Of a stretch of DNA of 64,000 nt, positions 13,977-17,081 are shown piece by piece. Under the pieces are notes generated by a model. That model did no database searches, was not told where the DNA came from, and saw only the letters and a program-made list of their open reading frames with translations. Every line of letters starts with the position of its first letter. The stretch's first letter is position 1. Both the position numbers and the translations under genes were made by a program. The stretch comes from an uncultured Polaribacter sp. (GTDB lineage Bacteria; Bacteroidota; Bacteroidia; Flavobacteriales; Flavobacteriaceae): NCBI GenBank assembly GCA_938084845.1, contig CALKEB010000034.1, positions 1 through 64,000 on the forward strand. The letters are read 5' to 3'.

Positions 13977-14008
13977 AAAAAAGAAAGCGTTAAGCTTCCT
14001 TTTTTTAA
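13975..14008. terminator. Bidirectional terminator between convergent genes
   Basis: A stem AAAGAAAGC/GCTTCCTTT (one mismatch) with loop GTTAA and A/T runs on both sides lies exactly between the stop at 13976 and the convergent stop at 14005. It can serve both genes. Confidence 0.8.
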
Positions 14009-14463
14009 TTTCTTCTTCTTTGTTTGTACTTACGCATTAAGTTTCTACCAAACTCCATTTCTGCAAACTGTAATTGTATGGTTTTTTTATACCCTAGTAT
14101 TTTGGTGATTTTTCCTATAAACTCATTTTGTTCTTGTAGTATTTTTTTATCGGTTTTTAATTTAAAGTCAATACTACTTTTGGCTTTTTTTTCAGAAACA
14201 CTATTTGGATCTAAAAATTGCTCCCTCAAGTTTTTCAAATTTTTACGAATAGCAAAGCGTAATGCATTAATTTTTTCATCGTGTGCATTGTAAATAGGCC
14301 AAAATACTTCAGCTTCCTTCGAAGTTAGATTTAATTGCTCGGTTAAATAGGCAATTTTTAAGGATTTTATTTTTTCTCTACTTTGATTTGTTTTTTGAGC
14401 GGTTAAAGACCAGCTTAAAAAAATACTCAAGCACAATAAGGGTATTCTTTTTTTCATCTTCAT
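14005..14463 (-). CDS. Spy/CpxP-like secreted protein of the ECF operon
   Basis: The 152-residue product has a signal peptide (KKRIPLLCLSIFLSWSLTAQ). The mature part is helical and contains YLTEQLNLTSKEAEVFWPIYN near residue 40, the LTxxE..xFWPxYN signature of flavobacterial Spy-like proteins, often named sensor of ECF-type sigma factor. The rest is lysine-rich helix. It is the third gene of the sigma operon and its ATG overlaps the stop of the preceding gene by one base (TAATG), suggesting coupled translation. A periplasmic chaperone or stress-sensing role is inferred. ATG 14457 is an alternative start. Confidence 0.8.
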   Translation of the reverse strand: MKMKKRIPLLCLSIFLSWSLTAQKTNQSREKIKSLKIAYLTEQLNLTSKEAEVFWPIYNAHDEKINALRFAIRKNLKNLREQFLDPNSVSEKKAKSSIDFKLKTDKKILQEQNEFIGKITKILGYKKTIQLQFAEMEFGRNLMRKYKQRRRN

Positions 14464-15009: not shown

Positions 15010-15038
15010 TTAGACAGTATTTCTAACTTAAGGTTTAA
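15010..15038 (-). promoter_or_regulatory. ECF-type promoter inside the operon, before the anti-sigma-like gene
   Basis: Read leftward: -35 word TTAAACC (15032-15038), 16-base spacer, -10 word GTCTAA (15010-15015), then ATAAATA and the ATG at 15002. The -35 overlaps the sigma gene's stop codon. The same two words with the same spacer precede the sigma gene itself. Confidence 0.7.
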
Positions 15039-15583
15039 TGAGCAGTTGCTTTTATGTAATTCTCTATTTTTTTTACAGCATGAAAATAGGAGGCTTTTAG
15101 CGCTCCTACAGAGGTTTCTAGAATGTTAGAAATCTCTTCATATTTCATTTCATCAAAATACTTCATAGTAAAAACAAGTTTTTGTTTTTCTGGCAATGTA
15201 GCAATTGCTTTTTGTAATAGTAACGCTATTTCATCGCCATCAAATAAAACATCATGAAGTAATGTGCTTGCTACAGATGTATGATATTCATTTAGATCTA
15301 CATTTTTTTCTTTCGCCTTTTTTTGAATAAAAGAGATTGCTTCATTGGTTGCAATTCTATAAAGCCAAGTATAGAGTTTGCTTTGCGCATTAAAACGATC
15401 TATATTTTTAAAGACTTTTATGAAAGTATTTTGTAATACGTCGTCTGTATCTTCATGGGTAATTACAATTTTACGAATATGCCAATACAAACGTTCTTTA
15501 TAAGTACGTATTAGCTTACGAAAAGCAATCTCCTTTAAAGAGGGCGTTTGTAAATCTTTGACTAAGGCAATTTCGTCTATCAA
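15035..15583 (-). CDS. ECF-family RNA polymerase sigma factor
   Basis: The 182-residue protein has region 2 (residues about 20-85: TDDVLQNTFIKVFKNIDRF..., LYTWLYRIATNEAISFIQ) and region 4 (about 120-175: LPEKQKLVFTMKYFDEMKYEEIS..., SVGALKASYFHAVKKI). Region 1.1 and region 3 are absent, which defines group 4 (ECF). The reading frame starts with TTG at 15583; no ATG is available in frame nearby, and the ECF-type promoter at 15600-15628 leaves a leader of about 10 bases. It is expected to drive its own operon. Confidence 0.93.
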   Translation of the reverse strand: MIDEIALVKDLQTPSLKEIAFRKLIRTYKERLYWHIRKIVITHEDTDDVLQNTFIKVFKNIDRFNAQSKLYTWLYRIATNEAISFIQKKAKEKNVDLNEYHTSVASTLLHDVLFDGDEIALLLQKAIATLPEKQKLVFTMKYFDEMKYEEISNILETSVGALKASYFHAVKKIENYIKATAH

Positions 15584-15599
15584 AAAAACATTTATTTAT

Positions 15600-15628
15600 T
15601 TAGACAGAAAATTACTGAAAAGGTTTAA
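15600..15628 (-). promoter_or_regulatory. ECF-type promoter before the sigma gene
   Basis: Read leftward: TTAAACC (15622-15628), 16-base spacer, GTCTAA (15600-15605), then ATAAAT. It shares both words, the exact spacing and the following ATAAAT with the promoter at 15010-15038. Autoregulation by the encoded sigma factor is the natural reading. Confidence 0.72.
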
Positions 15629-15638
15629 TTAAAAAAAA

Positions 15639-17081
15639 TTACGTTTTGGTTCTAGAATAGCTAAAAAGTCTTTTTTGCTTTATGGTTTCTGCAATACCTT
15701 CAGGAAGCATAGATTCCCATCCTTTTTCACCATTCATAATCATTTTAAGTACAGTTCTAGAAAAAATGTCTAAGATGTCTTTATCAAAATCATTGATGTC
15801 TAAGACCTTTCCATTGTTTTTAAAGTATTTATACAATTCTTTCATTCTAGGATGTACTTTTAAGTTTTCGCTAGTAATGTAGTCGTCATTTTCTTGGTCA
15901 TGATATGGATACATGTATACTTTTAAATCTCTGTAGAAAAGTTTACCAAATGCTTCTAAAATTCCACCACTAACATCTCTATAATATTTTTCATCAAAAA
16001 TTTGAATCATATTATGAACACCCATTGCTAGGGCCATTCTTTCTTTAGTGAATTCACTTAAATACTCTACGAGTTTAAAGTATTGTTGAAAACTGGTAAT
16101 CATTACATTTTGTCCAAGAGAACAAAGTAATTCTGCTCTATCTAAAAAGTCTCTTTCATTAATTTTACCTTCAGCAGATAAATTACTAAGTGTAATTTCA
16201 AAAATAATCTGTGTTTTACTTTCGTCTACTTTATTTTCTTGTAAGAACATTCTTTTTGACTGTTCAAACATATCCATATTAACTTTGGTAACAGGTCTAA
16301 AACTACCTCTTAATGCTAATATGTTCTTTTTATATAGAACTTGTGCAGGCAACAGGTTATTTCCATCAGGACCAAACATAACTGCATTTGTCATCCCGTT
16401 TTTTAGCAATTGTAAACTCATTAATCTATTGTCTACATACATAAAACGTGGACCAGAGAAATTTATCATATCAATTTCTAATTGATGGCTGCCTAAATTG
16501 TCGTAAAAAGACTTGATGAGCTCTTTAGGGTTGTCGTTTAAATAGAAAGCACCGTATATTAAGTTTACTCCAAGAACCCCTAAGGTCTCTTGCTGTAAAC
16601 GGGCATCTGTTTCTTTAAAACGCAAGTGTAAGACAATTTCGTTGTAATCTTCTAAGGGATCTAGTTGAAAACGGATACCTACCCAACCATGGCCTTTAAA
16701 CTTTCTTGCAAAATCAATTGTAGTTACTGTATTCGCATAACTAAAAAATAACTTATTCGGGTGTTTTTGCCTGCTAAGTCGATCTTCCATTAAATGAATT
16801 TCATGGCCTAACATTCTTTTTAAGCGAGATTCGGTAACATATCTGTTATCACTTTCAACCCCATAAATAGCATCAGAGAAATCTTTGTCATAAGCACTCA
16901 TTGCCTTTGCAATAGTACCTGAAGCAGCTCCAGATCTAAAGAAATTTCGTGCGGTTTCTTGTCCTGCACCAATTTCTGCGAAAGTTCCGTAAACATCTGA
17001 ATTTAGGTTAATTCTAAGTGCCTTACTTTTAGTAGTGGGAACGCTACTAATCTCTTGATCGCCTTTTAAAGAAATTGCCAT
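15639..17081 (-). CDS. Conserved cytosolic protein of unknown function
   Basis: The 480-residue protein begins after a short tail with KALRINLNSDVYGTFAEIGAGQETARNFFRSG, a signature I recognise from a widely conserved bacterial family that databases often label nicotinate-nucleotide adenylyltransferase or TonB-dependent receptor. It has no signal peptide or nucleotidyltransferase (HxGH) motif, so neither label is supported. The sequence is a mixed alpha/beta soluble protein. It has its own -7 box at 17106 and is divergent from the MBL-fold gene. The sigma operon follows after 55 bases. Confidence 0.85.
   Translation of the reverse strand: MAISLKGDQEISSVPTTKSKALRINLNSDVYGTFAEIGAGQETARNFFRSGAASGTIAKAMSAYDKDFSDAIYGVESDNRYVTESRLKRMLGHEIHLMEDRLSRQKHPNKLFFSYANTVTTIDFARKFKGHGWVGIRFQLDPLEDYNEIVLHLRFKETDARLQQETLGVLGVNLIYGAFYLNDNPKELIKSFYDNLGSHQLEIDMINFSGPRFMYVDNRLMSLQLLKNGMTNAVMFGPDGNNLLPAQVLYKKNILALRGSFRPVTKVNMDMFEQSKRMFLQENKVDESKTQIIFEITLSNLSAEGKINERDFLDRAELLCSLGQNVMITSFQQYFKLVEYLSEFTKERMALAMGVHNMIQIFDEKYYRDVSGGILEAFGKLFYRDLKVYMYPYHDQENDDYITSENLKVHPRMKELYKYFKNNGKVLDINDFDKDILDIFSRTVLKMIMNGEKGWESMLPEGIAETIKQKRLFSYSRTKT

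Follow-up and report, generated by a model that had tools for sequence, protein, structure and literature searches.

Organization of the sigma factor operon

The window, by which we mean the whole 64-kb stretch of DNA that was analysed, carries an operon of three genes together with two copies of one predicted promoter (Table 1). The predicted product of the first gene is a short protein with region 2 and region 4 domains, as expected of a member of the ECF sigma-70 family. Both Pfam domains scored above their cut-offs (PF04542, E 7e-16, 58.2 bits against 24; PF08281, E 3e-14, 52.7 bits against 25.7), and so did TIGR02937 (101.3 bits against 42.9). In NCBIfam, the protein stayed below the cut-offs of the Bacteroidota-group model NF058625 (PG0214/GFO_1088 equivalog; 84.8 against 130 bits) and of TIGR02985 (Sig70_bacteroi1; 95 against 126.4 bits). 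The plasmid search returned one record, which covered 8% of the query and was a sigma gene. Upstream of the operon, a 480-aa protein is encoded on the minus strand at 15639-17081; it gave no Pfam match and no NCBIfam match above cut-off.

The second gene may encode a membrane-bound anti-sigma factor, a putative role suggested by its position, its conservation and its topology, the predicted helices including N-terminal ones and a likely membrane helix at about residues 81-109. Two F-x-x-[PS]-x-x-Y-F repeats are present at residues 22-29 and 51-58, and at least two copies of the F-x-x-P-x-x-Y-F repeat were found with a loose pattern in 52 of 58 members of the gene 2 family. The protein gave no Pfam match above cut-off and no NCBIfam match, and no anti-sigma family of Pfam was present among the 25 of 29 weak matches listed for the 58 members. 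Its predicted structure reached a pLDDT of 72, and this low-confidence model gave no useful fold match to eight chains (best Z 2.9); an anti-sigma domain may still be present.

The likeness of the third protein to CnrX, Spy and CpxP is treated here as a lead and not as an identification. Its AlphaFold model has a pLDDT of 92, and Foldseek placed CnrX chains first with this model, at a probability of 1.0 but an E of 0.086. In a second comparison, CnrX gave a Z of 8.4 over 110 residues (rmsd 5.8) and an unrelated ribosomal chain 8.5; helical bundles reach such values by chance. At E≤0.1, weak matches to LTXXQ and Metal_resist were obtained for 9 and 11 of 45 relatives, respectively, and the protein of the window itself matched neither. 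A sequence search of solved structures with the gene 3 profile yielded two weak unrelated matches alone, and the NCBIfam scan of the gene 3 family yielded five weak matches, all to unrelated families. The metal ligands of CnrX are His, Met and Glu. In the gene 3 family alignment, one His column was conserved at 36%, with no other His, Cys or Met column at or above 30% (N-terminal columns excluded). A metal-sensor reading of gene 3 from the CnrX fold match was dropped because conserved metal-ligand columns were lacking. The start of gene 3 overlaps or closely trails the stop of gene 2 in most loci, which suggests coupled translation.

Table 1. Features of the sigma factor operon, in positions of the window.
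Feature	Position	Strand	Description
P1, predicted ECF-type promoter of sigma gene	15600..15628	-	-35 TTAAACC 15628-15622, spacer 16, -10 GTCTAA 15605-15600
P2, second copy of the P1 promoter	15010..15038	-	-35 TTAAACC 15038-15032, spacer 16, -10 GTCTAA 15015-15010
ECF sigma factor, 182 aa, TTG start	15035..15583	-	PF04542, PF08281, TIGR02937
Gene 2, putative membrane anti-sigma factor, 179 aa	14463..15002	-	position, topology, conservation
Gene 3, predicted secreted helical protein, 152 aa, CnrX/Spy/CpxP-like	14005..14463	-	weak LTXXQ / Metal_resist relatives

Two copies of one promoter word in the window

The word TTAAACC-N16-GTCTAA occurs twice in the window, both times on the minus strand. 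Apart from P1 and P2, no match to the two end words was found in the window when spacers of 14 to 18 were scanned, and 100 dinucleotide shuffles scanned over the same spacers gave a mean of 0.02 matches, with 1 as the largest number. The pair had been proposed in the initial annotation, and both copies were recovered; the coordinate 15622 given there for P1 had to be corrected, as it is the inner (3′) end of the -35 element, the 5′ end of which is 15628. The remaining description was borne out: the two spacers are unlike in sequence and 16 bases each, and the -35 element of P2 covers the sigma stop codon TAA (15037-15035). In P1 and P2 alike, GTCTAA is directly followed on its 3′ side by ATAAATAA.

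The 5′ end is predicted at about 15595-15591 for P1 and at about 15005-15002 for P2, the latter being at or just 5′ of the ATG. RNA folding at the two predicted starts showed nothing above shuffles (z -0.20 and 0.05). On the minus strand at 15591-15580, an out-of-frame ATG placed eight bases past the -10 of P1 opens a mini-ORF (ATG TTT TTT TGA); its stop and the TTG with which the sigma gene begins overlap across a run of seven T. The mini-ORF was not seen in the closest relative (L006).

The draft genome to which the window belongs (2.06 Mb, 70 contigs, 83% complete) holds two further matches to the end words, with spacers of 18 and 17 (L001 and L002), which were left aside because their spacer is not 16. 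The bare word TAAACC-N16-GTC was found there at 10 sites, against 19 for the reversed control, that is, without enrichment, and was rejected for regulon definition as too short. Genome-wide, significance rests on the longer word, its position and its conservation and not on the bare word.

Conservation of P1 and P2 across the family

One genome per genus was sampled from 100 genera of the family of the window, taken to be the Flavobacteriaceae, its own genome included, and the sigma factor was found in 87 of them (E≤1e-45). With AAAC[CT]-N16-GTCNNA, P1 was detected in 75 and P2 in 72 of these 87 genera, both in 63 and neither in 3, so that the strict P1 was missing in 12 and the strict P2 in 15. 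When the word was made stricter and had to begin with T, the numbers were 75 and 63, respectively, with both sites in 56 genera and neither in 5. When spacers of 10 to 22 were scanned in the 87 genera, a single P1 match (spacer 22) and a single P2 match (spacer 14) were obtained outside 16; such a fixed spacer fits what a -35/-10 pair needs. Reading 30 genus-level loci by eye, the window's own included, gave P1 in 29 of the 29 in which the contig reaches far enough and P2 in all 30. The initial annotation had made its reading depend on conservation of the motif in orthologous operons; this check did not refute it, and the layout with both sites is conserved in the majority of the sampled genera.

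A set of 80 named loci, biased in that they were the best matches to the sigma alignment, was also searched; their titles include Polaribacter, Tenacibaculum, Lutibacter, Maribacter, Kordia, Winogradskyella, Zobellia and others, with a few Prolixibacteraceae. Here A[AT]AC[CT]-N16-GTCNNA gave P1 in 78, P2 in 67 and both in 66. The 13 misses of P2 comprised five loci with the strict word farther downstream, 7-18 nt 5′ of the next gene start (L122, L136, L138, L142 and L162), six with a degenerate word (L113, L134, L140, L143, L152 and L163) and two with none (L108 and L160). At L143 the usual arrangement is reversed: P1 lies 7 bases from an ATG start of the sigma gene and P2 is degenerate. Another locus (L053, G008 C3) carries both promoter words beside a sigma orthologue with an in-frame TGA.

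Eight loci of order-level relatives (L045-L052) were read and left out of the family tallies. Neither site was seen at L045 and L046, P1 alone at L047 and P2 alone at L048; L049 has P1 with a degenerate P2, L051 a degenerate word at the sigma stop alone, and L050 and L052 looser matches.

Operators, too, can take the form of conserved paired words, and P1 and P2 might accordingly be bound by a DNA-binding regulator instead of acting as -35 and -10 elements. We consider this very improbable: the two words are mutually unlike, non-palindromic, oriented with the gene and held at a rigid 16-base spacer, and with their promoter geometry they match the ECF words AAC and GTC.

P2 lies at a short distance from the start codon of gene 2

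Seven bases separate the -10 of P2 from the ATG of gene 2 in the window. Among the 72 genera with P2, the distance to the first in-frame start codon had a median of 8 and was 4-10 nt in 60, with 12 outside this range; 57 of 66 in the named set likewise fell within 4-10 nt. The distance from P1 to the sigma start had a median of 16.

A short distance could be a by-product of compact gene packing with no translational meaning, and it could simply be inherited, as P2 overlaps the sigma stop at one fixed point in 61 of the 72 genera. However, in all of the 11 loci in which P2 has another position with respect to the sigma stop (-17 to +109), the start distance is 5-8 nt. It is 7-8 nt in three named loci whose P2 sits at about +83, +84 and +146, though 18 in L138 (+103). 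Moreover, the other targets of the word mostly lie 15-60 nt from their start. Packing alone is for these reasons judged a fairly unlikely explanation. Since the distance is kept when P2 moves, P2 tracks the start codon of gene 2, and not the sigma stop, in the family sampled.

The 5′ ends of ECF transcripts lie about 7 bases past the -10. Together with the P2 distance this would give a leader of about 0-3 bases, and the P2 mRNA should thus be nearly leaderless. The near-leaderless form is not universal, since five exception loci (L119, L138, L147, L151 and L162, three of them titled Prolixibacteraceae) have P2 18-19 nt from the ATG of gene 2.

As just 4-10 nt lie between the -10 of P2 and the start codon in 60 of 72 genera, a 5′ end at least 10 bases downstream would remove that codon. 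Transcripts from P2 might then start at or just inside it and leave gene 2 untranslated, the purpose of P2 being to supply extra CnrX/Spy-like third protein alone; LTXXQ-like proteins, relatives of gene 3, are indeed the class found most often behind the word. On the other hand, selection on gene 3 alone would not need the gene 2 start distance that is kept where P2 has moved off the sigma stop, and the overlap or close trailing of genes 2 and 3 in most loci suggests that the two are translated together. We regard this explanation as unlikely and favour a P2 transcript from which gene 2 is translated.

Start codons of the sigma gene and gene 2

Start codons were taken as the first in-frame ATG, GTG or TTG past the -10; in locating gene 2, ATG was preferred. 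Among 74 genera, the sigma gene starts with GTG in 35, TTG in 26 and ATG in 13, so that 61 of 74 have GTG or TTG, whereas gene 2 starts with ATG in 64 of 72 genera (GTG in 7, TTG in 1); the difference gave a Fisher p of 3e-19 with relatedness ignored. In the named set (n=78), the sigma gene starts with TTG in 49, GTG in 16 and ATG in 13. In the five exception loci with a distant P2, the sigma gene has an ATG start, and the two usual traits are thus absent together.

The near-start P2 and the GTG or TTG starts of sigma genes against an ATG neighbour suggest that the inhibitor outpaces the sigma factor. The initial annotation had proposed that the downstream proteins could be made in excess of the sigma factor, which is plausible from the extra promoter and the GTG/TTG sigma starts.

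A paralogous operon with its own pair of sites

Elsewhere in the genome of the window there is another operon that is built alike (contig 23, L035, 45000-49500). Its sigma factor is 50% identical and has a TTG start, and it is accompanied by a gene-2-like gene with x-I-P-x-x-Y-F repeats, a lipoprotein-like gene and, as the last, an LTXXQ-like gene (below the Pfam cut-off). The double promoter has the form [TC]AAACTAT...GGGTC, with -35 AAACTAT in place of AAACCTTT. Among 10 paralogue loci (L035-L044), seven have both sites, one P2 alone and two P1 alone. The twin-promoter layout is therefore not confined to a single sigma factor, and the differing -35 words are what a separation of the two circuits would need.

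The word recurs before envelope genes

As the bare TAAACC-N16-GTC was too short, TTAAACCTT-N14-GTC was used instead over 14 genomes of the same genus, and control sites of the reversed word were located in them. The word TTAAACC-N16-GTCNWA, for which 57 of 58 genomes were among the matches listed and the controls were not empty, served solely to choose stretches (20, hand-picked).

The survey gave 64 sites, 63 of which were classed. The next gene was the sigma gene at 14, gene 2 at 14, an LTXXQ-like secreted protein at 18, and DUF1800, Porph_ging (also called GLPGLI) and beta-lactamase-family lipoprotein genes at three each; seven sites preceded other genes and one had no ORF. Seven of 46 assignments (2 gene-2 and 5 LTXXQ-like), for which the pattern script gave 'other', were made by reading, and each of the names DUF1800, Porph_ging and beta-lactamase is based on a single example compared with Pfam. 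One of the seven other sites lies inside an ORF and is probably due to chance (L071/L180). Besides P1 and P2, the window's own genome has one site ahead of an LTXXQ-like gene (C29) and another ahead of a DUF1800-like gene (C61).

LTXXQ-like (Spy/CpxP-type) genes stand behind the word in 13 of the 14 genomes, the exception being G022; beyond them, the targets vary among genomes. When 21 LTXXQ-like targets, three of them from other genera, were compared with Pfam PF07813, 16 matched at E≤0.1 (best 1.7e-5), two single examples gave no Pfam match at E≤0.01, and the profile of these targets matched the gene 3 profile at 97% probability. Tandem pairs of LTXXQ-like genes with one copy of the promoter word per gene were observed at L065, L066, L067, L069, L185 and L199.

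Context was determined for 67 sites (63 of the 64 and four from two other genomes). Two lie inside an ORF of at least 150 aa, and 49 lie between genes with the ATG of an ORF no more than 100 bases away; the 14 P1 sites fall outside these 49 because the sigma gene starts with TTG in all 14. The reversed word gave 23 sites in the same 14 genomes, 21 of them inside ORFs and none just before a start. In 13 genera in which the sigma factor was not detected, 4 sites were found in about 26.7 Mb (reversed control 6), one of which, from a draft of 80% completeness, precedes an LTXXQ-like gene. By comparison, 13 genera with the sigma factor, which had been picked for completeness and have larger genomes, gave 42 sites in about 47.2 Mb (reversed control 15), a number that includes those of the operon itself.

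Judged from their sequence and surroundings, P1 and P2 are very probably promoters read by the ECF sigma factor that the operon itself encodes. ECF promoters in general have AAC at -35 and GTC at -10. The initial annotation had argued for one dedicated sigma factor at both sites, and this is supported by the N16 spacer conserved at both, the ECF-like AAC...GTC and the recurrence of the word before envelope genes. At the level of sequence, the word stands both before the sigma gene and at other targets, as it would in an autoregulated ECF operon. It is nevertheless conceivable that another ECF sigma factor, such as the paralogue, reads P1 and P2 and that the operon is a mere target, for the genome has several such sigma genes (9 matches at E≤0.001) and a similar word is present at the operon of the 50% identical paralogue. 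We hold this to be quite improbable, because the word adjoins the present sigma gene in 75 (P1) and 72 (P2) of 87 genera, is about six-fold rarer per Mb in genera without the sigma factor, and is AAACTAT, not AAACCTTT, at the paralogous operon.

A proposed model of sigma-driven inhibitor surplus

We propose that the operon combines an ECF sigma factor with its probable anti-sigma factor in the membrane and a CnrX/Spy/CpxP-like protein in the periplasm that would act as helper or sensor. Once freed by envelope stress, the sigma factor would transcribe the whole operon from P1 and genes 2 and 3 independently from P2. The P2 mRNA would begin at or a few bases from the AUG of the anti-sigma gene and be leaderless or nearly so, while the P1 mRNA would yield the sigma factor from a short leader and a weak GTG or TTG start. 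Every round of sigma activity would in this way produce more inhibitor and helper than sigma factor, giving a negative feedback, and the same sigma factor would drive LTXXQ-like (Spy/CpxP-type) and other envelope genes elsewhere. We consider this explanation as a whole, namely a self-reading ECF operon with P1 and P2, an inhibitor surplus and envelope targets, to be likely.

It is further possible, and we put it forward tentatively, that the feedback is split by translation mode, with a leadered, weak-start sigma mRNA on one side and a sigma-driven, AUG-initial leaderless inhibitor mRNA on the other. The bacteria concerned do not rely on Shine-Dalgarno leaders. If such a split were true, the ratio of inhibitor to sigma factor would follow the state of ribosomes and initiation factors, feedback would persist when normal initiation fails under stress, and the stoichiometry of sigma and anti-sigma factors would be under a family-wide, sequence-encoded control.

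To our knowledge, few sigma regulons are known in this group. The present reading would assign a promoter word and core targets to the uncharacterised ECF sigma factor of 87 of 100 sampled genera, and the family would offer a natural, many-times-repeated test of how sigma/anti-sigma ratios are set. For leaderless translation that is conserved, P2 is also a strong candidate; in one species of the family, F. psychrophilum, leaderless mRNAs made up 5.5% of those mapped (PMC9723704).

Comparison with known systems

Titles, abstracts and passages found in the literature, which cover neither most subscription journals nor the ECF Hub, did not describe the present sigma factor or its pair of promoters, nor, for Bacteroidota, an anti-sigma mRNA that is leaderless. 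A sigma-driven promoter kept at the anti-sigma start codon across a family was likewise not described in the titles, abstracts and passages found, subscription journals being mostly uncovered. The group classification of the ECF Hub may already list a predicted motif for the group of this sigma factor.

Within Bacteroidota, EcfO-Reo of Bacteroidales is similar in being an ECF sigma/anti-sigma pair tied to outer-membrane stress; as far as the accessible passages go, it differs in that Reo is said to span all five compartments, the regulon has NigD proteins and a double promoter goes unmentioned (PMC13114119). The SM6 motif of F. psychrophilum resembles the present word as a flavobacterial ECF-type promoter with a CGT box that stands before an ECF sigma/anti-sigma pair, but the printed selection of SM6 genes includes genes for type IX secretion and for band-7 proteins, and an LTXXQ gene is not named in it (PMC9723704). 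In Cupriavidus, CnrYXH comprises a sigma factor, an anti-sigma factor and a sensor in the periplasm; CnrH drives transcription of the operon that encodes it and of a target operon (PMC4803752). The present operon shares with it the ECF sigma factor, the membrane anti-sigma factor and the periplasmic sensor (both putative here), and CnrX came first in Foldseek for gene 3; the gene order is different, and a conserved His/Met/Cys set was not seen in gene 3, so that nickel or cobalt sensing is not indicated.

In Streptomyces, sigR has a poor start codon and rsrA a promoter of its own; together they lead to an excess of RsrA, which acts there as a buffer, and an anti-sigma excess is stated also for E. 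coli SigE/RseA in the same paper (PMC5472188). The poor sigma start and the dedicated anti-sigma promoter are common to both operons. The Streptomyces sigR, however, starts with GTC and is acted on by IF3, and its rsrA has its own ribosome binding site and a promoter that is likely read by the principal sigma factor and not by SigR (PMC5472188). The E. coli rpoE-rseABC operon has two sigma-E promoters, of which rseA P3 gives a 228-nt inhibitory leader (PMC8595263). As in that system, an ECF sigma gene is followed by a (here putative) anti-sigma gene, and the sigma factor would read its own promoter and a second one serving the anti-sigma gene. Unlike rseA P3, which lies inside rpoE and gives the long inhibitory leader, P2 lies at the sigma stop with almost no predicted leader and is conserved across the family, and the genes after the sigma gene differ. 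The principle is thus known from E. coli rpoE/rseA and Streptomyces sigR/rsrA, and it is the form found here that is novel.
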